Made by a program: the position numbers and the translations under genes. Below the pieces are notes generated by a model, which searched no databases, had not been told where the DNA came from, and was given only the letters and a program-made list of their open reading frames with translations. A stretch of DNA of 35,559 nucleotides. Origin: a virus. How positions within the stretch are numbered: the first letter of the stretch is position 1; every line of letters starts with the position of its first letter. This document shows, in pieces, positions 2,241 to 34,037 of the stretch. The stretch is taken from IMG/VR virus record IMGVR_UViG_3300010354_000258, positions 1-35,559 of that record. One strand, 5' to 3'.

Positions 2241-2241
2241 G

Positions 2242-2559: not shown

Positions 2560-2577
2560 GGACGGAGGAAGCAAGGT

Positions 2578-3501: not shown

Positions 3502-4178
3502 TGGCCACCCTGACGACGCTGCTGGCCGACACGCGCAACCTGCTGGATGACAACGCCACCATCAAGCGGTGGTCGGATGCGTTCCTGACGCAGTACCTGA
3601 ACGAGGCTCAGTACGAGTTCAATCAGTTGACCCAGCTTTACAAGACCACGCAGGATGTCAGTCTTGTATCCAACCAACGGGAGTACGCATTCAGTAACCT
3701 GATTGGTCCGATTCTTCGCGTTGAGACGTTCAAGTCGGGCACGCCACCTACCCGGGCAAACTTGAACCTGACGACCGAGGAACGGCTGGATACGCTGAAG
3801 CCGACGTGGTTCACAGAGGCTGCTGTATCTACGGCGCCAACCCGTTTCATCCGATCCAAGCTAGATTACGACACGATCATCGTCTACCCGACGCCCAACG
3901 CATCTGCGGTTTTAACCTACGGATTTCTTCGAGCCTACGGTGCAGGTCTACCGCCTACACTAGTCGCGTCCACCTACGAAACCCCAGACATTCCGACTCA
4001 GTACCATCAAGCCCTGCCTTATGGGGCGGCGTACCGGGCGTTGCTGCTGAACCAAGACGCCGACTCTATGACGCTTGCAAATGCTTACAAGACTCGGTTC
4101 AACGAGTTCGCAGCTATGGGCCAAGCCGACAACAAGGTGAGTTTGACCAGTGGCACAACCATTCAAGGTACAGTATGA
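3501..4178 (+). CDS. Head-tail adaptor protein, second copy
   Basis: A 225-residue protein whose ATG overlaps the stop of the first adaptor gene. Its start (MATLTTLLADTRNLLDD, then LTQYLNEAQYEFNQLTQLYK) matches the same helical adaptor pattern as the upstream gene, followed by a beta-rich centre and a C-terminal helix (about 170-205). Two adaptor-like proteins in tandem would form successive rings between portal and tail nozzle, or fill alternative positions in one ring. The 3' end overlaps the next gene by 29 bases. Confidence 0.75.
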   Translation: MATLTTLLADTRNLLDDNATIKRWSDAFLTQYLNEAQYEFNQLTQLYKTTQDVSLVSNQREYAFSNLIGPILRVETFKSGTPPTRANLNLTTEERLDTLKPTWFTEAAVSTAPTRFIRSKLDYDTIIVYPTPNASAVLTYGFLRAYGAGLPPTLVASTYETPDIPTQYHQALPYGAAYRALLLNQDADSMTLANAYKTRFNEFAAMGQADNKVSLTSGTTIQGTV

Positions 4179-21500: not shown

Positions 21501-24500
21501 CATTGGCGAGTATTGCGGATGTCATGGCGCCTGTATTGGAGGTCGCCGACGCCCTCAAGGGCACTGATTTAGCGCAAATGCATACTTGGCCGGCTGAGCG
21601 CGAACTTTTACTCAAGCAAGCGGAACGCGCTGAATCGGAGTTGCAACGGGCTCGAAACACGTTACTTGACATGTTGACAAGTTCAAAGGTTTTGGGACGT
21701 TACGCAAATCCAGATCGGATCGATCCTCGCCAGACTGTACCTGCTCATACTCGACCTGTTCTTTACCACAACACCACCCTAGATGGTTTTATCACTATGG
21801 CGGCATTGGGGGAGATGGGAACACTGGAGCCCGGGAACCTCGCATATGGCCATAGCGGTATGGCGTTTGTGCCCCTTGTGACACGAAGCCAAAAAGAAGA
21901 AGAAGTGACTCAGTTGGGACTGGTATCTATGTCCCGTAGGGCTAAGTTCTTGGCGCCGGGACTCGATAAAAGACCTATCCGACTTCGATTTAATCGGGAT
22001 TCCTTAGCTCAGACCTACCCCATCACTGCTTACGAGTGGTACCGGCCTAAAATCCAAAGCACTACTTTCGCGTCTGAGAAAGCATCTCGGCTGTTTGAAA
22101 ACCTAGCGAGACGAGACTCGGGTCTTTTATCGAGAGAGGAACTTGAGGCGTATCGCAATAGTACCGCAGCCGAACGCGCACAGTTGAATACTCCCGTGTC
22201 CTCTTCAGACATGGGCGATTACTTGTGGAAGGTCGCGTTTGAGGGGTCCGGACTTCAAAAGCCGACGCCGGAGGAAGCGGCAAGGATTGCGGAACAGCGC
22301 CGCGCTTTAGAGGCAGAGTATGTTTACCCTAACATGAACATGCGCGATGCCTTTAAAGTAACCACATGGGATGATATAAAGTGGGCTCGAATGAGCCAAC
22401 TGAAGATTACAGACCAACTTGATACAAATATGCAATCCATTCTAGAGGCTGCGGCACAAGGCAAGACTCACAAGTACGCACCTGCGCTGTACGATTTGCT
22501 TGTTGCCTACATGGGTATGCCTAATTTTTCTACCGCACAGTATGCGCTGGCAATGCCATACCTGACTTCGTACCTAGATCAGTTAGCGGATCAGGCAAAT
22601 ATGCCTCGCGTGTCAGACCCCGCGTTCTTGGCTAAGTATTATCGACCGGGTGAAGCGCCCCCGATCGCGAAAACGATCATTTTAGAATACGCCAATCAGC
22701 TTGACCCACCTGTAAAGATGCCGCCTCAAATGGGACGGTATCGAGGCGCAGGTAAAATGGAATTGCGGAACGAAATTAAACAAGAGCGCGAAGCGCTGGA
22801 AAAGACCGGATATCGCAGGAGCAAACTAAAGTTCATCCCGGGCACGGAAAAAGATGAAAATCGGCGCGAGGCGGAGGATGCTATTCAAGGTCCAATTATG
22901 AATTGGATGCAGCACGTGGAAGGCATTGACATGCCACGGGCTGAGTACGATTACCTACGGTCAGAGTACGACTATCTGAGTCAAAAGGCGAACGACCCAA
23001 ACTTTGGAGCACTGCCTGACACCACCCGTAATAAGATTTTAGCCAACGCGAACGGCATTTTCCAAATTCTGACTCACCCGGGACTGCGGGTGTCGAAGAA
23101 AAAGGAAGACATCGGCAACCTGTTTGCAGCCGCTCCTGTCGGATTGGCAGGCGCGGAGGGAGCGGGTGTCGAGGGCCTTGCCGTGGGTGGAGCCGCCTTT
23201 GCGTACGCGATGACTCCATATCTGGCGTCCGCTGTGGAGGCTGTCAACAATACGGCTTACATGCGGAAGTTGGAATCCGACCTTCGGGCTTCAGCCGCCC
23301 CAGTTACTCCTCCCAGTGCTTCCCCGGCGCTGGCTGCGCCATTGCCTCGTACGCGGCTGGTGTCGCCTGTTGAATCCGTCACGGCAGACCCTGCGGTGGA
23401 AGCAGCATTGCAACAAGCACAGGCTACCGCACCGAAGTCCGCAGCAGCACGCGCCGCCCGGATGGTAGCAGGCGCGGCGGAGCGGGTGGCTTCCCCCATC
23501 CTGCGGTCGGTTGCGGGTATCAACCGCATTGTGCGCACGCTGGGCGAGACAGCGGTCGCCAAGACCTTGAGCCTGTTCGGTGCCAAGCTGAGGACCGGAA
23601 TCAACCCCGATACCTTGCGGTCAGAGACAGGCACGGCTGTGGCAGATGCCATCGGTCGGACTGCTGATGTCATGCAGACCCTTGGGTCCAATCTTTGGAA
23701 TGCCGCGACGGGCCGTCAGGGGCTGACTGTCCCGAAGGTGCTAAACGACGTGCGCGACCAGATGCACCGGATGATGGCCGCAGGTGAACAACAAGCGGTC
23801 CGCATCGAAGAGTATCTGGCCACAACCTACGACACGAACACCCGGGCGTTGCTTGAAACTATCCTTGATGCGGGGGGCGACTTGCCCCAGCCGTACGCTT
23901 CCGACGATGTGCTGAAGGCATTCGTCGCGTCGCTTCCGACAATGGCCAATGACTTGCAGACCATGGGCGTACTTACCAAGGACCAGATTGCCCGTATGGA
24001 CCGTTTGATGGTGCGGTCAATGTCGAAGCGCACGCCGGGGGATGTAGCCCCGATTCGGGATGCTCTGCTCAATCTGATTGATGCGGCCAAGGGTCAAGCC
24101 GGGCCGCCCGATCAATCCAAGTTCTGGATGGCGCGGGGCAATCGGCAGAATATTCCTATCGCGGAGTTCAACAAGTACGCGGGTCGCGTTGTCGATCCCG
24201 TGACGGGCAAGGTGTCGTACGACCCGTGGCAGGTCATTCAGGCCACACCGGACACATTGACGCTGCGGAACTCGACGGGCACTGTCACGGTCAGCAACCA
24301 GTTCGACAAGGCTACGGGCGAGATCGAATCCGCCAACTACGTCCGGTACAACCCGAAGACCAAGCAGTACGAGAATCCGTGGACCGAGATTCGTGGTGAC
24401 AAGTCTGTGATGACTGCGGTCCGAGATTGGACTCCGGCAGAGTTGGATAACTACGGCATTGTCCGCGACATCTCCACGGCAGCTTTCAAGACGCTTTCGA

Positions 24501-26260
24501 TGTGGAACAAGTTCACGGCCCGAGGCGTGATGTACGACTTCATTGCCAACAATCCGACCATCGACGGGCAGATGATCGCCATTCCCGCCAATGCTGTTCG
24601 GCGGTCGCAGGATCTGCAAGGCGGCGAGCAGAACTGGAGTCCGCCACTGGGCAAGGAGTGGGGCGCGTTGCAGGGCTTCCGCGTGCGCAAGGACGTGCTG
24701 GAGTTCGTGTCCAATGCGCAACAGGACGGCCCCATCCTGCAAATGCTGGAAGCGTCCAGCCGGGAATACAAGCGCACGCGCACGACGCTCAGTGTCAGCT
24801 ATGCGATGAACAACTTGCTGGGTAACGCCGCCATGTTGATGCTGAACGGCGGCCATTTAAGTGCGGTGCCGGAGGCAATGGGCATCCTGCTTGACCGGGG
24901 CGACCTATTCTTGGAGCTTCAGCGCAACGGCGGGTACGAAGGCACGACCTTCCAAGAGATGGTTCGGGAGCGTCAGCGGGCTGGCACCAATCTTCCTAGC
25001 CTTACCGAGAAGACGATGGACTTCGTGGGCGGGGCGATGGACCGAGCCACCAGCGGCCTCATCAAGGAAGTCAACAGCCGTCTTGGAGGCAAGCCGCAGA
25101 CCGCCGAGAACATCATGGCGACGATCCGGGATGTGGCCAGCACCGCTAACCCCACAGTCTTCAACAAGTTCGTGGACGACTTGTTCCGCACAGCACTGGC
25201 AGTCAGCGTGCTGAAGGAAGGTGGTTCCGTCCAAGGCGCTGCCCAGCGCATGCGGGAAGATATGTACAACGTGATGGTCCCGCGCACATCAGCGGGACGA
25301 CTCGCCAACGCAGTATTCCCGTGGGCGTCGTACCCGATGTGGGCGATTTCCAATACGCCTCGCGTCTTCTTGCAGAACTGGCACGTGGCCGGCGTCAACA
25401 CCTTGATGGCGGCAGCGGCGGCGGCCTTGACCGAGGCGCTGGCGTTTGGCGAAGAAGATGAGGAGGAGCGCAAGCGGCGGCGTGCCGCAGAAAAGGCCAG
25501 CGCCTATAACCAGACCAACATCCCATTCCTGCCGGAGCGTCTGTATCTTGGCAAGGACGTGACGATGGAGTTGGGCACGGCCAACCCGTTTGAACCCATT
25601 GCTCAAACAATCGAATTGGGCCGTCGATTTGCCGAGACTGGCGACCTCGGGGAGGCAATGGGCGCCTCGCAGGGCTTCCGGTTCCTGCCTGTACGTCCCT
25701 CTGGTCCGATTGTCGGTGCTGGGTTGCTGTTCCCCGGGGGTCGTAATCCAATGCAGCCGGACAAGCCTGCCCCGTCGGGACTGTCGGACTGGGCGTCATT
25801 CGCGGCTGAGGCAGCGTTCCCGAATCCGACCACGATTGCCCGTGGTCTGATGCGGCAGAACCTGCTGGGTGAACAGCCAGAACTGGAATCAGATGTGGCA
25901 GGTATTGAGCAGCCCAGCGGCCCCTCGGCAGCCCTGTTGCGCGGCCTTGGTCCCTTCAAGACGCGGAACTACGAGCGAGATGTAATGGGTCAGGTGGGTG
26001 CGCTGGGTCGCATCGAGAAGGAGATTCAGTTCCGGATCAACGATATCAACAACCGACTGAAGAACCCACAAAGCAAGAATCCACTGTCGCCCGAGGAGTA
26101 CGAGACCAAGTACATGGACCTGATTGACCTGAAGATGCGACTTCAAGCGCCGATTTACGCTAAGCTGGAGACGCTTGGTGCCATGACTGGCGGTGGCTCG
26201 TCTGGCGCGATTCGACAAGGGCTTGGTACTTCCCCGCCCGGCCCTTCTCCGTTAAGGTAG
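15578..26260 (+). CDS. Giant 3560-residue virion/polyvalent-type protein
   Basis: One uninterrupted 10.7-kb frame. The first 85 residues are Pro-rich. Hydrophobic Gly/Ala segments (about 254-308, 331-365, 453-475, 1588-1622, 2517-2558) could cross membranes after ejection. PEAPE-type linkers (about 805-845, 961-992) separate helical domains. Around residue 2059 RPVLYHNTTLDGF resembles the opening strand of ADP-ribosyltransferase-like domains, but no full catalytic triad is clear. Residues about 3068-3432 (NNLLGNAAML, FPWASYPMWAISNTP, IPFLPERLYLG) resemble the large-polyvalent-protein-associated domain LPD38. Such giants are packaged and injected with phage DNA. I found no lytic transglycosylase motif. 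It starts behind its own promoter and lacks a Shine-Dalgarno site. Gene reality is certain; domain calls are tentative. Confidence 0.8.
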   Translation: MRPNISPTPGDPGDLLATGSVGGLMPAVTPTPEPTPLFTPQPLTPPPGLAATPKATPTPAVPKPSPAPAPPKPLKSPAKPAAIDNVKLFDEAMTGVASRLRTSAKQAPYMQAMGDNLDELRKTTLGNRKDPRSLVKFGRTLGEYVNYVESTVLQQLDEQADLFDPAEFTKFRTNFTLGMEPLKNIARLALKSASPTFSPDVELTKAEQALMNWKVGAMASGMPLVTGTSYLAEKVTGEPFTTGPLFEPDPTIQGLGQLAGLTAELLGTRGVGVAATVASAPFRAVAGTGMLAGKLVGKGAEAILRKVAPNLAQKTIGGKAIIAPAAAQGARVAPGLVSDIAGVAGSGAAIAGMGALVPNLVETSRPMMTTYDPTSGQLIQERAPKKSAEEIRKTTLMGGVSAGLGRAALAPFAPATTKLGQAAQEVAEEAVSTVPDFVQAYLTGEPLDLVATMAGILASGPIGAAVGEAPAAGAADTTTTPPAPSEADLQNAVNSALGVGAVSPEPTAAPAPAAPRPVPPDVLRRVAATRASLEQQRTVYEAYLADPAAPEDAKTVVQATLEGIQQQLTRMDERLASFGIDPNNIQPPPAAVEAKGLTPPPASVSGGNVMFGLPRGGGNFPVQFADDVDKALYLLQSKQVGSQAKKKEILNWLMSVTGKTEAELLEASDLVRDQVALTAARRPKTELGPIVSPKSPITFQAPEAPATETTAGRVPPTPQAPAGQILIEDPVQLQFARKLVQRVRTGFKGVDTAEKGDRRLRRLVDDNGHTNASAADLKATYGFTDEDLAVLGLGQPGGAPPLPAQTMPTLPEAPEAPAAEAPVTPEAQAPEAAPVTPEAPAPAFNVDAYAKALADLVEAGDDAAFTQLTQTIPEGQEAAVNDALTAEMSARGLGEAEAAPAEAAPEALTPNTIEDYVRKFEAIRNTNVDEAIRLFNEALDKFGEDEWNRVYKASGTEVADQGQPAPPGVTPEAAPEAAPEPTEPEAPAVTAEDYREAMVAAAEANDPAALGRIVTDALKNNIPISEVRAIVQSLPPIQGDPQKAQQFAPDLSPAGERVYRAILAQVANEFRGMAMLDDTAIPRYLKRLSNAIVDPALRKAVMTLAKRAIEAVRAEARVAQSVPKASRLDEMAQASTENVLDLLPRLQGVSFETAVAQVEAYRREQQLQEVDRIRGIFTRASGIPDRIRDQVLRLLDPNNDDLINIAEAIGTGDIKIISKEGQPQRAKLKIDIDKALTFSKSERLPAVKTALKDLEKTFNAVMVRGGADSDDLVAALWQLKARQQEGNTYRLPFSTDNVFSSQRGYGPGLIRLDDDSLQAIVDADNPETQAARLEKARTQVGGSATPAERIQWTTRQIEEEKSQAAAARLILEYRQFLDDLLPTETETTFDAIEVPEPGELPPGAQMEEGPEVMEAPMPQRAPVPGAWWQSRMQALMDERNAKRQQREAMAGNARVPMAFSGRQFPPGFFARWNGNRNPEKSFLEIGTVEDEGSKTVGKLNVLTNPNDDGVHPWRYVDGTGKKTYGAMTPEEYGKLSDDLYEGGAQDMQQAAYMDMLRQRHATAQMQAQSDNPEVQAAIGRMKAALQRYMPGFLALVGIGAAAFAPEGTLPAMLLAGTVGAGQPDSVDLFKMLTTAEGRAAIKKDFTQFYTDLRVIAQAASNIQTLRPDLLKARPSDNFKAWAATFRGLLAAKEGRAFAQAVPTAALEGVYADYDFNHAFAVKPVLDPTDPSSAKPLPLYKQPRELFPTFPPADQLPDPAETSYIPGKRGAEDAKDDIDRAMGSIRSAQWVLSGVKNRLENDDKRAEKSRQKLGEAIAVVTAKYGIPSIQRPGSIDAFRRLVVATIQRRPDVMLGLERFGVFRSAMGLSQSLYLLPEDPALDDVEESAVALWNAFQGIDLDPSTLKIEGGAEVAAGDFITRLARAKQSLPPSINLGSADLLGRIKKVAQDLQDLDTSALGEVTRRNLVNQIKDWQALASIADVMAPVLEVADALKGTDLAQMHTWPAERELLLKQAERAESELQRARNTLLDMLTSSKVLGRYANPDRIDPRQTVPAHTRPVLYHNTTLDGFITMAALGEMGTLEPGNLAYGHSGMAFVPLVTRSQKEEEVTQLGLVSMSRRAKFLAPGLDKRPIRLRFNRDSLAQTYPITAYEWYRPKIQSTTFASEKASRLFENLARRDSGLLSREELEAYRNSTAAERAQLNTPVSSSDMGDYLWKVAFEGSGLQKPTPEEAARIAEQRRALEAEYVYPNMNMRDAFKVTTWDDIKWARMSQLKITDQLDTNMQSILEAAAQGKTHKYAPALYDLLVAYMGMPNFSTAQYALAMPYLTSYLDQLADQANMPRVSDPAFLAKYYRPGEAPPIAKTIILEYANQLDPPVKMPPQMGRYRGAGKMELRNEIKQEREALEKTGYRRSKLKFIPGTEKDENRREAEDAIQGPIMNWMQHVEGIDMPRAEYDYLRSEYDYLSQKANDPNFGALPDTTRNKILANANGIFQILTHPGLRVSKKKEDIGNLFAAAPVGLAGAEGAGVEGLAVGGAAFAYAMTPYLASAVEAVNNTAYMRKLESDLRASAAPVTPPSASPALAAPLPRTRLVSPVESVTADPAVEAALQQAQATAPKSAAARAARMVAGAAERVASPILRSVAGINRIVRTLGETAVAKTLSLFGAKLRTGINPDTLRSETGTAVADAIGRTADVMQTLGSNLWNAATGRQGLTVPKVLNDVRDQMHRMMAAGEQQAVRIEEYLATTYDTNTRALLETILDAGGDLPQPYASDDVLKAFVASLPTMANDLQTMGVLTKDQIARMDRLMVRSMSKRTPGDVAPIRDALLNLIDAAKGQAGPPDQSKFWMARGNRQNIPIAEFNKYAGRVVDPVTGKVSYDPWQVIQATPDTLTLRNSTGTVTVSNQFDKATGEIESANYVRYNPKTKQYENPWTEIRGDKSVMTAVRDWTPAELDNYGIVRDISTAAFKTLSMWNKFTARGVMYDFIANNPTIDGQMIAIPANAVRRSQDLQGGEQNWSPPLGKEWGALQGFRVRKDVLEFVSNAQQDGPILQMLEASSREYKRTRTTLSVSYAMNNLLGNAAMLMLNGGHLSAVPEAMGILLDRGDLFLELQRNGGYEGTTFQEMVRERQRAGTNLPSLTEKTMDFVGGAMDRATSGLIKEVNSRLGGKPQTAENIMATIRDVASTANPTVFNKFVDDLFRTALAVSVLKEGGSVQGAAQRMREDMYNVMVPRTSAGRLANAVFPWASYPMWAISNTPRVFLQNWHVAGVNTLMAAAAAALTEALAFGEEDEEERKRRRAAEKASAYNQTNIPFLPERLYLGKDVTMELGTANPFEPIAQTIELGRRFAETGDLGEAMGASQGFRFLPVRPSGPIVGAGLLFPGGRNPMQPDKPAPSGLSDWASFAAEAAFPNPTTIARGLMRQNLLGEQPELESDVAGIEQPSGPSAALLRGLGPFKTRNYERDVMGQVGALGRIEKEIQFRINDINNRLKNPQSKNPLSPEEYETKYMDLIDLKMRLQAPIYAKLETLGAMTGGGSSGAIRQGLGTSPPGPSPLR
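20770..20793 (+). repeat. 24-bp exact direct repeat read in two frames, copy 1
   Basis: Identical to 21011-21034, 241 bases further on. Here it is read to give S-S-A-K-P-L-P-L-Y. Because 241 is not a multiple of three, the second copy is read in another frame (L-G-E-A-I-A-V-V). The repeat lies at the start of a segment of the giant gene with lower GC and different codon choice. Confidence 0.85.
21011..21034 (+). repeat. 24-bp exact direct repeat read in two frames, copy 2
   Basis: Second copy of the 24-base sequence at 20770-20793, in a different codon frame of the giant gene, here encoding L-G-E-A-I-A-V-V. Identity in two frames cannot be explained by protein conservation. Confidence 0.85.
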
Positions 26261-26264
26261 AAAC

Positions 26265-26543
26265 ATGTCCGACGAAGCATTGGTGATCACCCGGCAGGAG
26301 TGGCAATCCTTGCAGGAGAAGCTGAACCGTATCGAAGCCGCCATAACTGGCGGCCTTGATGGGGCTAGCGGCGGCCTGCGCGGGCGTGTGGAAGGCATCG
26401 AGCGTGAAGTGTCGGCGGTACGCGCACAGGTTGCAGCGCTGGAAGAAAGCCGCCGTTGGGTTGTGCGATTGGTGTCGGGTGCGGTTCTGACCACGGTGGT
26501 ATCGGCAATCATTGCCGCCATTCAGATGATGGGTAAGCACTGA
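26265..26543 (+). CDS. Small coiled-coil/transmembrane lysis protein (XhlA/holin-like)
   Basis: A 92-residue protein with AAGG a few bases before its ATG and a TGATG overlap with the endolysin gene. Residues 10-64 form an amphipathic helix with a Gly-rich break (29-40), and residues about 66-88 form one membrane span (VVRLVSGAVLTTVVSAII) with a short charged tail. Length and layout match XhlA-type holin accessory proteins. Placement directly before a cell-wall peptidase supports a role in membrane lesion formation. It could alternatively be a minor virion membrane protein. Confidence 0.7.
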   Translation: MSDEALVITRQEWQSLQEKLNRIEAAITGGLDGASGGLRGRVEGIEREVSAVRAQVAALEESRRWVVRLVSGAVLTTVVSAIIAAIQMMGKH

Positions 26544-27004
26544 TGGCCAAGCTGTCCGAGAACTTTGGCCTGCACGAGTTCCTTGCCCACGACGATCCGA
26601 ACAAGCCTGACCTCGTGGCCATGCGGTATCTGGCCCAGCTTTGCGAGGATGTGCTGGAGCCTTTGCGGGCACACCTGAAGTCGCCTATCATCATTACGTC
26701 CGGGTTTCGGAGCCCGAGCCATAATGCCAAGATCGGCGGTGCCAAGAACTCCCTCCACACGACAGGGATGGCTGCTGATATTGCTGTTGGGCAGCTTGAT
26801 AAGCAGATCCGTGTGGCTGCATTTCTGTCAAAGATTCCAGAAGTCGGCGGCATCGGTTTGTACGAAGCCAAGGGCATCATCCATGTTGATATCCGCCCCC
26901 ACGTCGGTGTCCCGGCGACGTGGCTGGAACGCGCCGATGGCAAGTATGTTCCCCTACCCCTGACACTCAAGGCCCGTATCAAGCTGGCCGGAGGCAAGGT
27001 CTGA
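26543..27004 (+). CDS. M15-family D-Ala-D-Ala carboxypeptidase-type endolysin
   Basis: A 153-residue protein with the zinc peptidase motifs of family M15 (Peptidase_M15_3 type). It has SGFRSPSHN at 53-61, SLHTTGMAAD with predicted zinc ligands His72 and Asp79, and HVD with His114. It should cut peptide cross-links of peptidoglycan at the end of infection. There is no signal peptide, so it needs the neighbouring membrane proteins for release. Length is typical of single-domain phage M15 endolysins. Start overlaps the upstream stop and its stop overlaps the next ATG (TGATG both sides), forming a compact lysis operon. Confidence 0.93.
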   Translation: MAKLSENFGLHEFLAHDDPNKPDLVAMRYLAQLCEDVLEPLRAHLKSPIIITSGFRSPSHNAKIGGAKNSLHTTGMAADIAVGQLDKQIRVAAFLSKIPEVGGIGLYEAKGIIHVDIRPHVGVPATWLERADGKYVPLPLTLKARIKLAGGKV

Positions 27005-27345
27005 TGGATATTGGAAACCTGCTGGCCAGCGGTGTGATGTGGTTGGTGCAGCAGCCCGCAGTTCAGGGCGCGGCTGTTGCAGCGGTCACGGAAGTGGTGA
27101 AGAAGTCCCCGGTAGGGCCGACTGGTGGGCCGGGTATTCGTGCGGTAGCTGCTGTGCTGGCTATCGCATCGGCGTTTGCGTCTGCGGCTGCCGCAGGCGA
27201 CGTGAAGGCCGTCGATCCTGCCGTGGTCGGGGAACACCTGACCGAGGCCCTGTCGGCGTTCCTCGCGGCTGTGGGTGCGTGGCAGTTGGCCACCAAGAAG
27301 CCCAAGCCCCCGGCTGCGGAGGAGCCGGTCATCAACCCCTCCTGA
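27004..27345 (+). CDS. Putative holin, two membrane segments
   Basis: A 113-residue protein starting at a TGATG overlap with the endolysin gene. It has a hydrophobic Ala/Val-rich segment at about 44-65 (IRAVAAVLAIASAFASAAAAG) and a second at about 80-97 (TEALSAFLAAVGAWQLA), with a weaker N-terminal amphipathic stretch. The C-terminus is Lys/Pro-rich and polar. This layout fits a small phage holin that forms pores at a set time. Paired with the coiled-coil/TM protein on the other side of the endolysin, one may be holin and the other antiholin or accessory; which is which cannot be told. Confidence 0.65.
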   Translation: MDIGNLLASGVMWLVQQPAVQGAAVAAVTEVVKKSPVGPTGGPGIRAVAAVLAIASAFASAAAAGDVKAVDPAVVGEHLTEALSAFLAAVGAWQLATKKPKPPAAEEPVINPS

Positions 27346-27731
27346 TGGCCGGCACCGCCAAGAAGACCAATCCCGCCCTGTGGGAAAAGGCCAAGGCCCA
27401 AGCCAAGGCCAAGATGGGCGGCGAGCATAGCGCCCGTGCGATGCAGCTTGCCGTCCAGATGTACAAGAAGCAGGGCGGCGGTTACGTCGGGGCCAAGTCG
27501 AAGGACAACAAGCTGTCCAAGTGGACCCGCGAGGACTGGGGCTACAGTTCCAAGAAGCAGGAAGGCGAAGGCCGGTACCTGCCGAAGAAGGCTTGGTCCA
27601 AACTGAGTGCGGGCGAAAAGGCAGCAACCAATGCCGCGAAGAAGAAAGGCACGGCAGAGGGCAAACAGTTCGTCCCGCAGCCCAAGAAGATCGCCAAGAA
27701 AGCAGCGGCGGTCCGCAAGCGGATTCCGTGA
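27345..27731 (+). CDS. Basic protein, DUF5872-like
   Basis: The ATG at 27345 overlaps the previous stop; the longer frame upstream is rejected because it shadows the holin gene. The 128-residue product is very Lys-rich. Its centre reads KLSKWTREDWGYSS, then RYLPKKAWSKLSAGEKAATN and FVPQPKKIAKKA. This W-x3-DWGY / YLPK / LS-x2-E-K-A pattern resembles a small conserved family of viral basic proteins (DUF5872 as I recall it), whose function is unknown. It may bind nucleic acid. It is the first of a series of basic proteins. Confidence 0.7.
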   Translation: MAGTAKKTNPALWEKAKAQAKAKMGGEHSARAMQLAVQMYKKQGGGYVGAKSKDNKLSKWTREDWGYSSKKQEGEGRYLPKKAWSKLSAGEKAATNAAKKKGTAEGKQFVPQPKKIAKKAAAVRKRIP

Positions 27732-27745
27732 TGAGTACCACGATG

Positions 27746-27788
27746 AAGACCCCGCCGATTCCTGTGCCTGACGGCTCGGCGGGGTCTT
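27746..27788. terminator. Bidirectional-type hairpin terminator
   Basis: Arms 27746-27758 and 27776-27788 form a perfect 13-bp GC-rich stem (AAGACCCCGCCGA with its complement) around a 17-base loop. The ends are AA and TT, followed on the + strand by GTCGTCCTT. It sits in the 149-base gap after the DUF5872-like gene, the longest gap of the late region, and probably ends transcription of the lysis part or separates it from the small basic-protein genes. The T-rich tail is short, so strength is uncertain. Apart from this hairpin and a ribosome site near its right end I see nothing in the gap. Confidence 0.7.
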
Positions 27789-27880
27789 GTCGTCCTTCTC
27801 TGCGGCTTACCGCGCCCGCCCTGATAGTTGGAAATCGTCGGCAGGGACACAGTTCGTCGGACAGCACAAGGATAGCATAG

Positions 27881-28237
27881 ATGCCTAAGAAGAAGCCCAC
27901 GGCGGCGGAAGTCTACAAGAAGTACGACGCCCGCACGAACAAGAACATGGCGGAGCATAACGCCAAGGGCGGCAGCGTGCGCCAGCCTGTGCGAAACGCT
28001 GCCGGTGCCAGCACAAATGACTTGTATGACCGGGCCAAGTTCGGTTATCGTAAGGCAGTACAGGCTCTGAAGGGTCAGCCGTTGCAGGACAAGAACGGCA
28101 ACCCGACCCCGGCGGCGATGCAGTTCAAGCGGTGGGATTACCCCATCCCCAAGAACAGCGGCGACTTGTCCAAGATCAAGGCCCAAGCGGAACGGGCCAA
28201 GCTCAAGTATGGGCCGAAGCCCAAGGGGAAGAAGTAA
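27881..28237 (+). CDS. Small basic protein of unknown function
   Basis: A 118-residue protein with AAGGAT upstream of its ATG. It is rich in Lys, Ala, Pro and Asn throughout, with no membrane segment. A central part (about 45-95: STNDLYDRAKFGYRKAVQAL, then RWDYPIPKNSGDL) looks folded and helical; the ends are basic and probably disordered. First gene after the hairpin terminator and second member of the basic-protein series. Its stop overlaps the next start (TAATG). No known family recognised. Confidence 0.65.
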   Translation: MPKKKPTAAEVYKKYDARTNKNMAEHNAKGGSVRQPVRNAAGASTNDLYDRAKFGYRKAVQALKGQPLQDKNGNPTPAAMQFKRWDYPIPKNSGDLSKIKAQAERAKLKYGPKPKGKK

Positions 28238-29010
28238 TGGCTAAGAACATGCCGCCTGAAAAGCCCGCTGCCAAGAGTGCGCCGGCAAAGCCTGCTGCAA
28301 AGAGTGCGCCGGCAAAGCCTGCTGCAAAGAGTGCGCCGGCAAAGCCTGCTGCAAAGAGTGCGCCGGCAAAGCCTGCTGCAAAGCCTGTTGCCAAGAAGTT
28401 GCCTACGGCGACAGCTAAGGCACTTAAGTCACGCATCAGCAAGATGGAGAGGACCCGCGCCTACATGCCCGCAGGCCCAATCGGACAGGAAGAGATTCAG
28501 AAAGTACGTCTTGAGCCGGTGGGAAAGCGCAAACTCACTAAGGGCGAATTTTCTGATTATTCGCCTACAACCGGCAAGCCAGTAACTGTTAAGCCGCTTA
28601 AGGCCCGTGCGCGGGCAGCGTCTGAGCCAGCGATGGTCAAAAAGTTGGATCGTTTGATCGGCGGCACCCGTCCGGGCAAGCCTAGAAAATTTGACGTAAC
28701 CGGAGACAAAATGTTTAAGGAGCAATTGCTAAAGCGCAAGGATACTCGCCCGTATATCGAGCAGGAGTTTGACAAACTAAAGTATGGCCAAGGGGAATAT
28801 GACCCCAAGACGAGGAGTATGGCATACGGATTGCGGCCTGAGACGAAGAACATCGACAACGACACCCTGCGGAAAATGGCTAAGGAAAACGCCGCGACCC
28901 GGTGGATGAAGGAGTTGGGGCTACTGAAGTCACGCCCGTCTGGCGGCGGTGGCGGCGGTGGTGGCGGTATGGGTCCCGGTCGTATGGGCAAGCCCCAGCC
29001 CCGTCCGTGA
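28237..29010 (+). CDS. Histone H1-like Lys/Ala/Pro-repeat protein with Gly-rich tail
   Basis: Starts at a TAATG overlap; 257 residues. Residues 11-50 are nine-residue AAKSAPAKP repeats of the kind seen in H1-like tails. A charged middle (about 60-230) has no motif I know and uses more AT-rich codons than its neighbours. A run of nine glycines precedes the end GMGPGRMGKPQPRP. It is strongly basic. The repeat tail suggests non-specific DNA or RNA binding, for example packaging or masking DNA; the middle domain could instead give a specific role. Context: central member of the basic small-protein cluster. Confidence 0.7.
   Translation: MAKNMPPEKPAAKSAPAKPAAKSAPAKPAAKSAPAKPAAKSAPAKPAAKPVAKKLPTATAKALKSRISKMERTRAYMPAGPIGQEEIQKVRLEPVGKRKLTKGEFSDYSPTTGKPVTVKPLKARARAASEPAMVKKLDRLIGGTRPGKPRKFDVTGDKMFKEQLLKRKDTRPYIEQEFDKLKYGQGEYDPKTRSMAYGLRPETKNIDNDTLRKMAKENAATRWMKELGLLKSRPSGGGGGGGGGMGPGRMGKPQPRP
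28267..28386 (+). repeat. 27-bp near-perfect tandem repeat
   Basis: Units at 28267-28293 (one base different), 28294-28320, 28321-28347 and 28348-28374 are otherwise identical, followed by a 12-base partial unit. Each encodes AAKSAPAKP. Identity at third positions means recent slippage or recombination, so copy number may vary between isolates. Confidence 0.9.
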
Positions 29011-29021
29011 GGAGTAACGAA

Positions 29022-29279
29022 ATGCCCGGTAAGAAGATGCCGCCCAAGAAGGGCCTCGGCCTGATGATCATGATCGGCATGGGCAAGCCCAAGGGAAAGA
29101 TGGGCAAGCCGATGAAGGATGACGACGAGTCGCCGGCCATGGAGCGCAAGGAAATGGCGATGCTGAAGAAGGCTATGAAGAAGCCTATGGCAAAGAAGCC
29201 GGCAGCCAAGAAGCCGGGTGGGATCAAGACAATGCCGAAGGGCAAGCCCGGCTCGGGCTCGCAGGGGAGGGGATACTGA
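29022..29279 (+). CDS. Met/Lys-rich small protein
   Basis: An 85-residue protein starting at ATG 29022 behind GAGGAGT. It consists largely of Lys, Met, Gly and Pro (about 13 Met), with KKMPPKK, MIGMGKPKGKMGKP and LKKAMKKPMAKKPAAKKP runs and one acidic DDDE patch. A short hydrophobic stretch (LGLMIMIGMG, 12-21) is too short for a normal membrane span. Composition suggests a disordered, nucleic-acid-binding or metal-interacting peptide. Its stop overlaps the next ATG (TGATG). Real gene status is supported by the ribosome site and tight coupling. Confidence 0.65.
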   Translation: MPGKKMPPKKGLGLMIMIGMGKPKGKMGKPMKDDDESPAMERKEMAMLKKAMKKPMAKKPAAKKPGGIKTMPKGKPGSGSQGRGY

Positions 29280-29455
29280 TGTACGGCAAGGCTGGCAAGA
29301 TGCCGAAGATGAAGAAGGACAAGGGGATGCCTGCGGTGTCCTCGTCCAAGCCGGGCTCGACCCCTGAGCAGGGCACGATGTACCGGATGGGTGTCGCCAA
29401 GATGCCCAAGGAAATGAAGATGAACGGCAAGCCGCGTCCCGGCATGGAAATGTAG
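29279..29455 (+). CDS. Met/Lys-rich micro-protein
   Basis: A 58-residue frame starting at the TGATG overlap. It has 11 Met and 11 Lys residues, including GKMPKMKKDKGMP, KMPKEMKM and the end PGMEM. It is related in composition and in the GKMPK/GKP motifs to the gene just upstream, so the pair may be diverged copies. No fold is evident. Too short for most ORF cut-offs, but overlap coupling on the left and a two-base gap to the next start support translation. Confidence 0.6.
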   Translation: MYGKAGKMPKMKKDKGMPAVSSSKPGSTPEQGTMYRMGVAKMPKEMKMNGKPRPGMEM

Positions 29456-29457
29456 GG

Positions 29458-29637
29458 ATGAAGGCCAAGAAGGGAATGGGCTTCAAGGCGGCTCAGAAGG
29501 GCATTGCCAAGAAGCAGGGCATCTCGATGGACCGAGCAGGTGCTATTCTGGCTGCCGGGGCACGCAAGGCCAGTCCTGCTGCCAAGAGAGCCAACCCGAA
29601 CCTGATGAAGGTCAAGGGCGTCAAGAAGGGTAAGTGA
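29458..29637 (+). CDS. Small basic phage protein (KxG..A..IL..G..KAS motif)
   Basis: A 59-residue protein whose ATG lies two bases after the previous stop. It reads FKAAQKGIAKKQGISMDRA, then AILAAGARKASPAAKRAN and PNLMKVKG. I recall this IA-x-K-x-GIS / AILA / KAS-x2-AK / NP-x-L-x-x-VKG pattern as a recurrent short phage protein of unknown function. It is probably a compact basic helical protein. Its stop overlaps the next ATG. Confidence 0.68.
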   Translation: MKAKKGMGFKAAQKGIAKKQGISMDRAGAILAAGARKASPAAKRANPNLMKVKGVKKGK

Positions 29638-30061: not shown

Positions 30062-30107
30062 TGGCGGGCTCGTTGCTGCCGGGGATAGCCTGCTGGATGT
30101 AGATCAT
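29877..30107 (-). CDS. Hypothetical small protein, last gene of leftward operon
   Basis: Its ATG overlaps the stop of the RuvC-like gene (ATGA). The first about 45 residues (MIYIQQAIPGSNEPAIIYG, then VFLTTVIQTADHESIE) look like a genuine folded, beta-rich domain. The remaining 30 residues lie opposite the + strand Cys-containing gene and look like its shadow. The two converging frames overlap by 185 bases. Function unknown. Confidence 0.5.
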   Translation of the reverse strand: MIYIQQAIPGSNEPAIIYGEGLVALSGKVFLTTVIQTADHESIERRVSSHPRAGASAPDASPPVGALHTAPDHASP

Positions 30108-30649
30108 TTGGCTTTGCCTTTCGGAAGTCCGAGGGGATTGGCGCGAACGACTTCAAGAATACGCTTGCGATCCGCGTTGGACTGTGCAAGCGGGGTGTCG
30201 GCATACGCGGCGGCCATTACTGCCAGATTGAAGGCGTCGCATTGGTTGTCGTCTTCAAAGCGAAAGCCCCACTCGTCAAATGTTGATACTGCCATGACAA
30301 TCTTGTCAGCGGCTCCGTTGCCTGTTGTCCATTTCTTCAAGACGTTAGGCGGTACGACGATGTACGGTATGCCTTGTGTATACAGCCACAGTCGAATGAC
30401 GCCGCCCAACTCGCCCAGATAGAACTGATTATTCTTGCTTCCGAACGAATAGCCTTCGATGGCGGCGTGCGTAATATCGGTACCAGCTAGAGCTTGGGCC
30501 AATGCCGATTGAATCCATTTGAGGCGCGGCGTTTCTTTTAGGGCGGGCGGCGGGGATAGCGTCGTGATCTTGGAAGCGGTCACGTCGTCGGGTGAAACCA
30601 ACGCTAGCCCGGTTGCTCGCAATGAGAGGTCCAGCCCTACGAACGACAT
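30104..30649 (-). CDS. RuvC-like Holliday junction resolvase / RNase H-fold nuclease
   Basis: A 181-residue protein with an AAGGAG ribosome site before its ATG. The RNase H-fold acidic residues are in place: Asp7 in GLDLS, Glu65 in IEGYSFG, and Asp134/Asp138 in EDDNQCDAF. The VPPNVLKKWTTGNGAADK segment (98-116) is typical of RuvC-type resolvases of phages. It should cut branched DNA before packaging, or act in recombination. It lies near the end of the leftward operon with methyltransferases and zinc-finger proteins. The upstream frame overlaps its first 221 bases. Confidence 0.88.
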   Translation of the reverse strand: MSFVGLDLSLRATGLALVSPDDVTASKITTLSPPPALKETPRLKWIQSALAQALAGTDITHAAIEGYSFGSKNNQFYLGELGGVIRLWLYTQGIPYIVVPPNVLKKWTTGNGAADKIVMAVSTFDEWGFRFEDDNQCDAFNLAVMAAAYADTPLAQSNADRKRILEVVRANPLGLPKGKAK

Positions 30650-30971
30650 CCTCGTACTCCTTACACTCAGGACAGTCTTGCGCCGTTACGATGCGGGCAC
30701 CACAGCGATCGCACCACGCAAGTAATCGGGCGGTGGCGTTCGCCAACCGTTTGCGCCAGTCGATAAGAATGACCTCCCGCATATCCCAGATGATGTGCAG
30801 GCACTCGACCCGACCGCAGTACGCCAGCCCCGTCAGCGGTATTCGCTTGTCGGCGGGGCTTAGACGGTAGGGTGCGGGGGCGTTCCGCACGAGTTGATGG
30901 CAACCCGGGCAGACTGGTATCTGACCAAACGCGGAATCGAGCCATTGCTGATAAAGAGCTTTCAGGGTCAC
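30429..30971 (-). CDS. Zinc-ribbon protein with long read-on tail
   Basis: The start is GTG at 30971, overlapping the upstream stop (GTGA). The N-terminal 108 residues hold Cys21/Cys24, Cys52/Cys57 and a classic ribbon Cys87/Cys90 with Cys100/Cys103 (CDRCGARIVTAQDCPEC). After residue about 108 the frame runs on through the RuvC-like gene for 221 bases with shadow-like composition, so the functional part is probably the first 108 residues. It could be a DNA-binding or adaptor protein for the nuclease that follows. The extra tail may be real or due to a frame error. Confidence 0.6.
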   Translation of the reverse strand: MTLKALYQQWLDSAFGQIPVCPGCHQLVRNAPAPYRLSPADKRIPLTGLAYCGRVECLHIIWDMREVILIDWRKRLANATARLLAWCDRCGARIVTAQDCPECKEYEDVVRRAGPLIASNRASVGFTRRRDRFQDHDAIPAARPKRNAAPQMDSIGIGPSSSWYRYYARRHRRLFVRKQE

Positions 30972-31555
30972 GCCAGACCTCGCTGCGTGAGGTGGCGCAG
31001 TACACCGTCCACATCAGCCGCGAAGTCAGGGTACAGCGCATACAGCCGCTCGCCGCGCTGGACGCCCCGGATGGAGTTTGAGATGTTCTTGGTGAACAGG
31101 ACCGCCATTTTCTCGTGAGGAAGATTGGTCAGGTTCTTCAGAACCAGCATCGCCACCGTCCGCATATGCACGTAGGGGGCGCGTTGGCTTGTGCCGTACA
31201 GCAACAAGGCCGCCGACACATCGAAGTACTCGGCCACTCCGCTGACAATCTGGAGGTACTTGGCAAACTCCGGGTGAGCCTTCAGGTGTTCTTCGCGGTA
31301 CTGTTGCCAATGGTCGGCACAGTACGTCAGGTAAACCGGAGGCTTGTCGCAGAAGTAGCAAGGCTCTGCCATAAGCCGCTTGGCCGTGCTGTCGTCGTAA
31401 ACCCGTTTGGCGTGGCACTCCTTGCAGACGCTGCGCACCGTGTAGGAGTTGTTGCCTGCACGGTAGAACTCCGTGAGTTCCAACTCGCGCTGGCACTTCT
31501 TGCAGACCTTGCGACCTTGCCGCGCTTTACGGGGTGATGAGGCTGGCGAGTCCAT
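30968..31555 (-). CDS. Zinc-finger protein with DnaA domain IV-like C-terminus
   Basis: I choose ATG 31555, which has GGAGG eight bases before it, over the longer frame from 31603. The 195-residue product has two Cys clusters: Cys18/Cys21 with Cys44/Cys47 (treble-clef style) and Cys66/Cys69 with Cys79/His82. Residues about 98-165 follow the DnaA C-terminal DNA-binding pattern: VAEYFDVS, then MRTVAMLVLKNLTNLPHEKMAVLF and SIRGVQRGERL. The usual RDHTTV signature helix is replaced by KNISNSI. It may recognise a DNA site, perhaps a phage origin or operator. There is no AAA+ ATPase part. The DnaA relation is read by eye. Confidence 0.72.
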   Translation of the reverse strand: MDSPASSPRKARQGRKVCKKCQRELELTEFYRAGNNSYTVRSVCKECHAKRVYDDSTAKRLMAEPCYFCDKPPVYLTYCADHWQQYREEHLKAHPEFAKYLQIVSGVAEYFDVSAALLLYGTSQRAPYVHMRTVAMLVLKNLTNLPHEKMAVLFTKNISNSIRGVQRGERLYALYPDFAADVDGVLRHLTQRGLA

Positions 31556-32138
31556 CCAGTTCCTCCCGAATATCCAGTCCTGAAATCTCGTTGCCGACGA
31601 CATCCCAGCCGTCTACCATCGACCTCCCAAACAACTCCAGCTTGCGGAGGTCCGGGTACATCTCCTCAATGCGCTGCCGCACCGTCTCAGGCTTGGCGCT
31701 GTGCCAAATCTTGCCGTCCTTGCGCGGGTGCGGCTCGATGATCACGCTGTCCACCAGCCGCTTGCGTGGCGTCAAAGGCTTGCCTTTGAAGGCGATGTAA
31801 ACATCTTCTGCGTTGCTGGCGGTGGTGTAGCCCGGCCCCCGGAACGTGCCGCCGTTCGGGTAGGTCTTGACCCACACGAAGGCCCGGGTGCAGTACCGGA
31901 AGCCCCACCGCTCGATGACCTGCTGCGTCAGGTACAGTCCCTTGGACGGCGTGGCCCACAGGAACAGGACGGCTTGGTCATCCAGCAAGGGTGCCAGATT
32001 GTTGACCAGACCCATGATGTCGCCGTCGGTCATCACGGGGTACTGCCCATGAACGCCACCACCGAACTTGGTGTCGGTGTGTACGGCCCGCTGGTTGAAT
32101 GCCCACGGCGGGTCCGCATATACAAGCTGATACTTCAC
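31527..32138 (-). CDS. MT-A70 family adenine methyltransferase
   Basis: The start is GTG at 32138 in a GTGA overlap with the upstream stop; a longer frame from 32225 is rejected because its first 29 residues shadow that gene. The 203 residues contain the catalytic DPPW at 9-12, LFLWATPSKGLYL (about 57-69) and the WVKTYPNGG and TASNAEDVYIAFKG segments of the MT-A70 fold. It transfers a methyl group from S-adenosylmethionine, most likely to adenine N6 in phage DNA. It shares an operon with a second methyltransferase. No matching restriction endonuclease is seen, so self-protection or regulation is likely. Confidence 0.9.
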   Translation of the reverse strand: MKYQLVYADPPWAFNQRAVHTDTKFGGGVHGQYPVMTDGDIMGLVNNLAPLLDDQAVLFLWATPSKGLYLTQQVIERWGFRYCTRAFVWVKTYPNGGTFRGPGYTTASNAEDVYIAFKGKPLTPRKRLVDSVIIEPHPRKDGKIWHSAKPETVRQRIEEMYPDLRKLELFGRSMVDGWDVVGNEISGLDIREELDGLASLITP

Positions 32139-32443
32139 CTGACCTCCGTGACTTGTTTGATGGCAGCCTTGAGGAGGTCTGCAATGATGGGCTCCGCCAA
32201 GATTTCTTCCCGGCTGATGTCCCACATCACGCCTGCCTCGCCCAGCTTGCGGGCAATCGTTACCGCCTCAGACCGCTGCTGGAACGGCCCGCAGATACGG
32301 GTCAGCGACTCCTCGTGCGTGACCTCGTACCCGAACCAGTTGGACTCCGTAATCAACAGGCCCGGGGTCGAACAAGTCCACGCGCCAACCTTCGCCGTGC
32401 CTCCATCAACGAGCGGCACCTCCACGTATCGTGGTGCTTTCAT
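32135..32443 (-). CDS. Hypothetical protein
   Basis: A 102-residue protein with an AGGAGG site before its ATG. N-terminal half appears beta-rich (VEVPLVDGGTAKVGAWT, then LLITESNWFGYEVTHEE), and the C-terminal half is helical (SEAVTIARKLGEAG, then ADLLKAAIKQV). Only two Cys, so not obviously zinc-binding. The stop overlaps the GTG of the MT-A70 gene, suggesting coupled expression. No family recognised. Confidence 0.7.
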   Translation of the reverse strand: MKAPRYVEVPLVDGGTAKVGAWTCSTPGLLITESNWFGYEVTHEESLTRICGPFQQRSEAVTIARKLGEAGVMWDISREEILAEPIIADLLKAAIKQVTEVR

Positions 32444-32451
32444 TCTGCCTC

Positions 32452-32655
32452 CTACGCAAGAAGTTCGTACACCTTTGCCGGACCAAGGCTCATCAGCATA
32501 TCGAGGGCGCCTCGGACCAGTTCTGACTTAGATACCTTTACACCGTGCGTCAGGCGCAAGTCAAGTAGCAACTGCTCCATACGCATGTCTAGTTCCTGCG
32601 GGATGTAGTAAGTGGCCCGCATGTTCAGGGAACCCGCCTCGAAATCCGAAGACAT
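32452..32655 (-). CDS. Ribbon-helix-helix DNA-binding regulator
   Basis: A 67-residue protein with AAGGAG before its ATG. Residues 12-19 (MRATYYIP) form the expected beta strand, followed by two helices (about 20-34 and 42-60, with KSELVRGALDMLMSLG), the Arc/MetJ/CopG fold. RHH dimers bind DNA through the paired strands. It is the first gene after a predicted promoter with an inverted repeat, so it probably represses itself and the downstream genes (hypothetical protein, MT-A70, zinc-finger/DnaA-like, zinc ribbon, RuvC-like). Confidence 0.82.
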   Translation of the reverse strand: MSSDFEAGSLNMRATYYIPQELDMRMEQLLLDLRLTHGVKVSKSELVRGALDMLMSLGPAKVYELLA

Positions 32656-32678
32656 GGCAATCTCCTTCCTGTCTCGTT

Positions 32679-32707
32679 AGTGTATCACATGCGTGTACGG
32701 TTGTCTA
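32679..32707 (-). promoter_or_regulatory. Leftward sigma70-like promoter before RHH gene
   Basis: On the minus strand TAGACA (32707-32702) and TACACT (32684-32679) are separated by exactly 17 bases, close to -35 and -10 consensus. Transcription would start near 32672, about 17 bases before the RHH start codon, leaving room for its AAGGAG site. It lies in the only AT-richer gap of the leftward operon. Confidence 0.6.
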
Positions 32708-32729
32708 GCATAACATAAACGCATGCTAG
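32705..32729. promoter_or_regulatory. Inverted repeat, candidate operator
   Basis: CTAGCAT at 32705-32711 and ATGCTAG at 32723-32729 form a perfect 7-bp inverted repeat with an 11-base spacer. It touches the predicted -35 box, and the far arm covers the stop codon of the upstream zinc-ribbon gene. A GCATGC palindrome lies inside. Likely binding site for the RHH protein, or alternatively a weak stem-loop. Confidence 0.5.
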
Positions 32730-33103
32730 GCGCTGCACAGGCGGTCCACCGTATCCGCAAGATCAATGCACTCGATGCACATCTGGTCCTTGCCGCGCTC
32801 GCTGGGCCGCTCGCCGCAGGCTTGGCAAGGCGCGGGCGGCTTCCGTGTTTCCCGCAGCCTGTCCCGAATGGCAAGCCGCTTGCACTCAAGACATACAGCC
32901 CTATCGTACGCCATCTCGACTTCCTTGCTGGACTTGCCGCAATGAATGCAGTTGTAAACATTCTTGGCACGGCGAGCCGCTACCTGTTTGGCGTGGCAAG
33001 GCTTGCACAGGCGACCGCTTTTCAGGTTCTTGGTTGCGCCACAGACATTACACGCCCTGCCTTGCGGCCTCGATTCTGGCTGTTGCGATCGCTGCGTATT
33101 CAT
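32726..33103 (-). CDS. Triple Cys-pair zinc-finger protein
   Basis: I choose ATG 33103, giving 125 residues and a 56-base overlap with the methyltransferase gene; no clear ribosome site precedes it, so coupling is likely. Three similar units each carry two CxxC pairs: 18/21 with 33/36, 52/55 with 71/74, and 93/96 with 109/112. The first is followed by a basic HAKQVAARRAKN helix. This looks like a tandem treble-clef or zinc-ribbon protein, suited to nucleic acid or protein binding, similar to HNH-associated Cys domains but without an HNH catalytic core. Confidence 0.7.
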   Translation of the reverse strand: MNTQRSQQPESRPQGRACNVCGATKNLKSGRLCKPCHAKQVAARRAKNVYNCIHCGKSSKEVEMAYDRAVCLECKRLAIRDRLRETRKPPAPCQACGERPSERGKDQMCIECIDLADTVDRLCSA

Positions 33104-34037
33104 CCGATAGTTCAAATCCGACAAAGTTGAATCCTTCCAATACCGCCGCCTTGCCGGTGCTGCCGGACCCGGCGAAGGGGTCCAGCACCGTACCGCCCGG
33201 CGGCACAATCATCTTGGCCAAGTACCGAAGCAAGGCCGTGGGTTTGACCGTGGGGTGGTGGTTGCGGCGCTTTGTCACGCTACCCAGCGAGCCGTCATTG
33301 CGCCCCTTCATCCCGCCCGCAGGTCGGGCGTCGAAGTCGTCCAGCCCCTCGTCGCGGTCCTTTGCTGTCGCCTTGCTACAGAAGAAGAATCGGGCAGCGG
33401 ACCCGAAGTCGGTCACGCCAGTCTGGAACTGCTGCACGGTCTTGAGGTCGCCCTTCTCGATAAATCGAAAGCCACCATCGAGCTTCTTCATCCCGACTTG
33501 GCCCTTCACCTCGGGGAACAGGTCTACGACTTCCGCGCTCCCGTCGTGCAGGATGTTGGCTGGCCATCGACCACTTACGTCGGGCACTCTGCACTCGTCG
33601 ATGTTGATAGCCCCCGTGCCAAAGATGTTTACATTCTCCTCGACAGTAGCAAACAAGGGCTTCCGAGCAAGAAGAATCGGCTCGTAGGCGGGCTTCAGCG
33701 CGGTGCCCCAGCCCTGCCAGTCGCCGCCGAGGTTGCGGGATTTGGGGAACCCGCTTGAGTACACCCACATCAGGCAGTCCCTGACTTCGAAACCCGCATC
33801 CTCGATAGCCACCGCGACCCGGTGGTACGTGCGCGTTGCCCCGAATACCAGCATATGAGCGCCGGGCTTCAGAACTCGCAGCACTTCCCGCCACAGATCC
33901 CGACTGAACGCGATGCCCGTCGAGTCCCAGCCCTTGCCCATCATCCCGATTTCGTAGGGCGGGTCGGTGATGACAGCATCAAGACTGTCAGACTCCAACC
34001 ACGCTAGACCATCACGGCAATCGCAGTTCAGGATCAT
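33048..34037 (-). CDS. Beta-class DNA methyltransferase (N6-adenine or N4-cytosine)
   Basis: A 329-residue protein with GGAGGA ahead of its ATG. The catalytic TDPPYEIG (DPPY 25-28) comes first and the AdoMet-binding DPFAGSGSTG (286-295) comes near the end; this order defines the beta class (N6_N4_Mtase). NHHPTVKPTALLRYLA (about 258-273) is the conserved element before the AdoMet site. The long middle (about 120-250) is the target-recognition region. It would methylate phage DNA and block host restriction. The start overlaps the stop of the 39-residue zinc-finger gene (TGATG). Confidence 0.93.
   Translation of the reverse strand: MILNCDCRDGLAWLESDSLDAVITDPPYEIGMMGKGWDSTGIAFSRDLWREVLRVLKPGAHMLVFGATRTYHRVAVAIEDAGFEVRDCLMWVYSSGFPKSRNLGGDWQGWGTALKPAYEPILLARKPLFATVEENVNIFGTGAINIDECRVPDVSGRWPANILHDGSAEVVDLFPEVKGQVGMKKLDGGFRFIEKGDLKTVQQFQTGVTDFGSAARFFFCSKATAKDRDEGLDDFDARPAGGMKGRNDGSLGSVTKRRNHHPTVKPTALLRYLAKMIVPPGGTVLDPFAGSGSTGKAAVLEGFNFVGFELSDEYAAIATARIEAARQGV

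Follow-up and report, generated by a model that had tools for sequence, protein, structure and literature searches.

The window analysed here, a stretch of 35,559 nucleotides, covers positions 1 to 35,559 of IMG/VR virus record IMGVR_UViG_3300010354_000258, a linear record that is possibly a fragment. On its plus strand, between positions 27345 and 29637, lie six consecutive genes for small, lysine (Lys)-rich proteins, referred to below as genes 1 to 6. Genes 1 and 6 belong to a set of viral genes for very small, Lys-rich proteins that recurs as a cassette and draws on a shared pool consisting of the gene-6 family, the DUF5872-related gene 1, DUF5754/Tlr6F, DUF6321 and minigenes rich in Lys and methionine (Met). 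In the genomes of unrelated tailed phages, this cassette occupies the region devoted to the head, to packaging or to lysis. The six-gene set is probably a real viral toolkit, as yet functionally uncharacterised, and perhaps serves the handling of viral DNA.

The six-gene cluster

The genes and the features lying within the cluster are the following (aa, amino acids):

27345..27731, plus strand: gene 1 (P1), 128 aa, Lys 21%, DUF5872-related basic protein
27740..27793, plus strand: GC-rich hairpin between genes 1 and 2, found by folding, 18-pair stem, weak terminator candidate
27881..28237, plus strand: gene 2 (P2), 118 aa, Lys 18%, possible divergent DUF6321
28237..29010, plus strand: gene 3 (P3), 257 aa, Lys 16%, N-terminal SAPAKPAAK repeats and Gly-rich tail
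28253..28383, plus strand: tandem repeat within gene 3, 27-bp unit, 4.9 copies, 96% match
29022..29279, plus strand: gene 4 (P4), 85 aa, Lys 25%, Met 15%
29279..29455, plus strand: gene 5 (P5), 58 aa, Lys 19%, Met 19%
29458..29637, plus strand: gene 6 (P6), 59 aa, Lys 24%, hyperconserved family without a name

A reading made from the sequence alone had described six small, strongly basic proteins, two of them very rich in Met, and all of this is borne out. The Lys contents of genes 1 to 6 (21, 18, 16, 25, 19 and 24%) stand against 1-8% in the other 23 window genes examined, a comparison that is based on our own selection of 29 open reading frames and not on a trained gene caller, while the net charges amount to +23, +19, +36, +17, +9 and +16, respectively. 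Since the GC content of the cluster (59.0%) equals that of the window (59.2%), the richness in Lys is not due to base composition.

The proposed coupling of the genes by overlaps applies in part, as 1-base overlaps occur at the junctions of genes 2/3 and 4/5, but gaps of 149 nt, 11 nt and 2 nt separate genes 1/2, 3/4 and 5/6, respectively. Overlaps of one base are also present at both edges of the cluster, between g27001 and gene 1 and between gene 6 and g29637. Moreover, the hairpin that had been thought to set the cluster apart sits between genes 1 and 2 and divides the set; it lacks a good T-run and was not among the calls of a terminator scan.

Families and conservation of the six proteins

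Gene 6 represents a family which is hyperconserved and unnamed in every family library searched. At least 520 relatives were found in IMG/VR, the best 80 of which share 77-94% identity, and an alignment of 43 members contains 17 invariant columns. Synonymous differences are saturated (median 0.81) as opposed to 0.18 for non-synonymous ones, and the median ratio of non-synonymous to synonymous change (dN/dS) is 0.115 over unsaturated pairs. Genes 1 and 6 are both under strong purifying selection. No match to gene 6 was obtained in Pfam, NCBIfam or the PDB sequences, and its PHROG match is at chance level only. A search of 50,697 GenBank phage records (INPHARED) gave no match and no cultured phage carrier, and among 84,980 prokaryote genomes the family occurs at just nine loci, all of them on contigs of 3.9-36 kb from metagenome-assembled genomes. 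In view of these scant cellular matches, gene 6 is close to virus-specific.

The AlphaFold model of gene 6 consists of four short helices (pLDDT 76, pTM 0.55), for which fold searches returned no significant match, families outside the searched lists remaining possible. Its best structural neighbours are HU proteins, matched over the N-terminal helix pair of gene 6 at insignificant scores (Foldseek E ~5; VIA Z 4.3 over 39 residues). Likewise, the HU/IHF profile reaches an hhalign probability of 2.6% against gene 6, which is not significant, with a score above that of 60/60 column shuffles. Unlike HU, gene 6 is devoid of beta arms. The likeness is to be treated as a lead and not as membership.

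A near-invariant protein of 59 aa in unrelated phages probably touches something conserved, for instance DNA or the ribosome. For this reason the strongest rival explanation is host takeover, in which the target of the proteins in the late phase of infection would be a conserved part of the host cell (ribosome, RNA, nucleoid or RNA polymerase). Gene 6 is indeed far more conserved than the head, giant and tail proteins of the window, for which close relatives were not found, and its model shows four helical segments and not a disordered tail. On the contrary, in the contexts seen the cassette resides in the late structural region and not among early genes, PADLOC reports no match to a defence system, and PHROGs with a takeover function are matched at no more than chance level. 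Taken together, host takeover is a serious but rather unlikely explanation.

Gene 1 matches phrog_14910 at E 8.2e-23 over residues 50-125, that is, nearly the whole 80-column profile, and it also matches PHROG 17747; for neither family is a function or context given in PHROGs. At least 576 relatives are present in IMG/VR. Against Pfam no match appears up to E 1, so that the gathering cut-off of DUF5872 (PF19197), 27.5 bits, is not reached, and an orthologue in locus L144 scores 22.9 bits against the same cut-off. The connection is provided by a protein of locus L120, which Pfam assigns to DUF5872 at E 4e-14 and which aligns with the gene 1 family at an hhalign E of 3.7e-5 (probability 71%, 58 columns, 31% identity). 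Judged by sequence comparison through such intermediate phage proteins, gene 1 is a distant homologue of DUF5872, though not classed as a member, and it differs by the lack of the cysteines found in the L120 and cyanophage members. No sequence match among known structures and no significant hit in fold searches were obtained for gene 1, families beyond the searched lists again being possible. DUF5872 has been annotated alongside DUF5754 in a Chrysochromulina virus (PMC12085832).

The remaining genes are less well connected. Gene 2 scores 19.1 bits (E 0.0021) over 59 residues against Pfam DUF6321 (PF19846), below the gathering cut-off of 28.5 bits, and further weak signals comprise an hhalign E of 0.0039 at 8.6% probability and rank 3/5002 against its own shuffles. 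Genes of the DUF6321 family occur in the same cassettes, whereas gene 2 carries its own C-terminal extension; it is possibly a divergent DUF6321 protein. Gene 3 starts with four SAPAKPAAK units, which are encoded by the 27-bp tandem repeat. With respect to the H1-like repeats suggested for it, the resemblance is one of AKP-type repeat composition only, and a Pfam scan up to E 1 gave no linker-histone match. Iterated profile searches with genes 2-5 over the loci fetched for the comparison below returned only self-matches, and genes 3, 4 and 5 have no detectable relatives.

It has negligible likelihood that the cluster is an artefact of spurious or merely compositionally biased open reading frames. 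The low complexity of genes 3-5 and their want of relatives would fit such an explanation, yet the base composition is that of the rest of the window, the junctions overlap tightly, and for genes 1 and 6 the strong purifying selection with saturated synonymous sites refutes it.

Linkage and genomic position in other viruses

Searches with gene 1 and gene 6 fetched at most 80 loci each and 160 in all, many of them fragments, in which genes were called mechanically. Because of this fragmentation and the 80 loci per query, a missing partner in a locus says little. In 46/80 gene-1 loci a DUF5754-type gene is present (44 within 2 kb, median gap 5 nt), accompanied by DUF6321 in 11 and gene 6 in five loci, while the 80 gene-6 loci contain DUF5754 in 51, gene 1 in 26 and DUF6321 in 15 cases, nearly all within 2 kb. 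All pairs among these four families are on the same strand, often a few bases apart. After dereplication, in which loci were merged by DNA similarity into 65 clusters, the linkage persists: gene 1 and DUF5754 occur together in 29/54 clusters, gene-6 clusters feature DUF5754 in 11/19, gene 1 in 8/19 and DUF6321 in 8/19, and at least three of the four families are combined in ten of the 65.

In addition, other small same-strand genes are enriched in Lys-rich members (at least 15% Lys) close to the cassette, with 131/491 (27%) within 1 kb versus 13/287 (4.5%) beyond 2.5 kb; the Fisher p of ~1e-16 is indicative only, since related loci are not independent. Lys/Met-rich minigenes resembling genes 4 and 5, for which homology is not demonstrable, lie within 1.2 kb of gene 6 relatives in 8/19 dereplicated clusters, as compared with 0 on the antisense strand. 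An extended example is locus L061 (positions 1879-6375), where about ten consecutive, mostly Lys-rich genes (most with 19-28% Lys), including DUF6321, end in a gene-1 relative before the tail-side genes. Within L120 (positions 3011-7058), gene 6, DUF5754-like and DUF5872 genes stand together with GroEL near the cassette, and locus L184 has GroEL and GroES genes near a basic-protein cassette.

Apart from these genes, the loci have hardly anything in common with the window, so that the parts pool is shared by unrelated phages. The suggestion of a functional set without a recognised name is supported: in dozens of unrelated phages, gene 1 and gene 6 show linkage with one another as well as with DUF5754 and DUF6321, on the same strand, with an enrichment of Lys-rich minigenes around them. 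Conservation among relatives is non-scattered for genes 1 and 6, while genes 2-5 have no close relatives by which to judge it.

In other phages, genes 1 and 6 are most often accompanied by DUF5754/Tlr6F (PF19058). A Pfam scan of the six proteins found no DUF5754 in the window cluster, and phage DUF5754-type genes mostly stay under the Pfam cut-off, too. The family was noted in 2015 as a small basic protein of unknown function that is conserved in polinton-like viruses, virophages, giant viruses and some phages (PMC4642659). Among known structures there was no sequence match to DUF6321 and no credible match to DUF5754. A single superfamily of DUF5754 and DUF6321 is not claimed, as the two align over only 19 columns around RRKSFxAR (hhalign E 9e-4, probability 23%).

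A fusion connects two of the families in T4-like cyanophages, where DUF6321 constitutes the C-terminal part of T4-GC119 proteins, encoded near terminase genes, and a further segment shows ~44-71% identity to the N-terminal part of the L120 DUF5872 protein. Such fusions of a DUF5872-like part with a C-terminal DUF6321 are present in S-B43 (L166:2972-4255), in S-TIM4 as ORF_115 (L179:2186-3283) and in Syn9 as gp114 (L182:1643-2974); in S-B43, Pfam marks DUF6321 only. Direct comparison of gene 1 with the cyanophage fusion protein gave no significant similarity, the link being made solely via L120.

In the commonest locus type, a major head protein (phrog_1357) lies upstream of the cassette in 67/67 loci and tail-side genes follow downstream, while in another type the cassette is preceded by a portal gene and an acidic, scaffold-like one and followed by a phrog_334 head protein. 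A DUF5754 gene lies two genes before the head protein in KBS-S-2A and at the convergent end of the late genes in the Celeribacter phage P12053L. In 17 loci, a strongly acidic protein (L032:4664-5695; ~337 aa, family net charge ~-50), scaffold-like in its position, ends ~12 nt ahead of the cassette and is possibly a scaffold partner of the basic proteins. This arrangement would suit head assembly factors that work on protein and not on nucleic acid, either as minor capsid proteins or as basic counterparts to the acidic scaffold; the flanking head-protein genes and the position of DUF6321 between scaffold and capsid genes in pelagiphage HTVC031P would suit them as well. Such a role is nevertheless distinctly unlikely, given that the window cassette follows the lysis genes, away from the head genes, and that the cyanophage fusion sits with terminase genes.

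Immediately upstream of the cluster, short overlaps link gene 1 to the lysis genes and a small hydrophobic gene:

26265..26543, plus strand: holin (phrog_689 holin, E 5e-5), upstream neighbour, operon shared with the cluster
26543..27004, plus strand: endolysin, peptidase type (phrog_894 endolysin, E 5e-32)
27001..27345, plus strand: small hydrophobic protein (g27001), located between endolysin and gene 1 and overlapping the latter by 1 nt

Comparable arrangements recur elsewhere. Gene 1 directly follows the endolysin in L009 and L074, and in L076 the distance from gene 1 to where the endolysin match starts is no more than about 0.5 kb, an arrangement much like that of the window; the endolysins of all three loci are relatives of that of the window. 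Gene 1 was found in three cultured phages: Synechococcus phage S-CRES1 (in the order lysozyme, small gene, gene 1, DUF5754), S-CRES2, with gene 1 and DUF5754 at corresponding positions, and Roseobacter phage CRP-9 (endolysin, small gene, DUF5754, one gene, gene 1, with terminase genes further along). The close upstream endolysin or lysozyme in the window, L009, L074, CRP-9 and S-CRES1 could point to lysis accessories, cationic peptides which disturb the envelope and hence follow holin and endolysin. In most loci, however, the cassette is flanked by head genes and tail genes and adjoins no lysis gene, which makes this explanation highly improbable.

The window as a whole runs from a head protein through tail-tubular-like proteins, a kelch-repeat protein, large proteins and the lysis genes to the cluster and finally to opposite-strand genes. 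Downstream of the tail-tubular-like proteins, positions 4150-7422 encode a protein of 1090 aa whose C-terminal part contains a kelch-type beta-propeller; it is possibly a receptor-binding protein. A single open reading frame of 3560 aa (15578-26260) contains no Pfam domains, and an IMG/VR search with a 466-aa part near its C-terminus found no close relatives; S-CRES1 likewise has a very large open reading frame (5.8 kb) upstream of lysozyme and the gene-1 relative. The minus-strand block at 30104-34037 is convergent with the late genes and comprises a RuvC-like resolvase, a DnaA C-terminal-like helix-turn-helix protein, an MT-A70 methyltransferase and an N6/N4 DNA methylase. Close relatives of the phage were not found in IMG/VR via the tail-tube-like protein, gene 2, gene 3 or the giant-protein part, nor in INPHARED via the head protein, and the RuvC-like gene has relatives only at 32-47% identity. 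As the searches made yielded no close relative, the exact six-gene order is a single observation.

A possible role in DNA packaging and its precedents

The favoured, though tentative, interpretation, to which we assign a probability of roughly 0.45, is that the six genes encode late, non-enzymatic nucleic-acid-binding proteins which act together. Around the time of head filling, they would cover or condense the DNA of the virus or offset some of its charge, and some of them may enter the head together with the DNA; binding, late expression, joint action and head entry are all inferred. The conserved helical cores of genes 1 and 6 might make contacts with DNA or with a common protein partner, whereas the low-complexity Lys-, Lys/Met- and AKP-repeat parts would supply bulk charge. 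The Lys contrast within the window, the linkage and positions of the cassette, the cyanophage fusion, the purifying selection and the analogy to chlorella virus PBCV-1 discussed below are consistent with such a role.

Several points weigh against it. The window set follows lysis genes and not head genes, fold searches with genes 1 and 6 gave no significant match, and genes 3-5, being without relatives, may fall outside the shared pool. A literature search for virion proteomics or binding data on the gene 1, gene 6, DUF5754 and DUF6321 families found none in the papers covered. Moreover, the comparative study of Sullivan et al. 2010 (PMC3037559) terms T4-GC119 hypothetical, for which reason the label "structural" or "virion protein" attached to it in some records was not taken as virion evidence. 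Finally, and as the main counter-argument, there is reportedly no evidence that basic proteins add much to the neutralisation of phage DNA, the dense packing of which leaves little room, and no such use of basic proteins is reported to be known from phages (PMC3281028); the same point would lend weight to a positive result.

In any case, phage DUF5754-type proteins are now tied to three other small basic families and to a recurring genomic position, and four separate labels of unknown function turn into one testable system. A bolder and unlikely extension would be a widespread, modular phage chromatin toolkit, in which many tailed phages would load minute Lys-rich proteins as sets into their heads together with the genome, some of these proteins having relatives in giant and polinton-like viruses. 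If true, it would run against the current view that phage DNA is neutralised by ions and polyamines and not by proteins; packaging of the proteins with the DNA would require the above statement on the minor role of basic proteins to be revised.

Precedents exist among eukaryotic viruses. Chlorella virus PBCV-1 packages several basic DNA-binding proteins, and its A278L, A282L and A437L/MC1 offer an analogy in that several basic proteins of one virus are thought to bind the packaged DNA (PMC3281028). A likeness, again by analogy, may also be drawn to the protamine-like proteins of other eukaryotic DNA viruses (PMC6163548).

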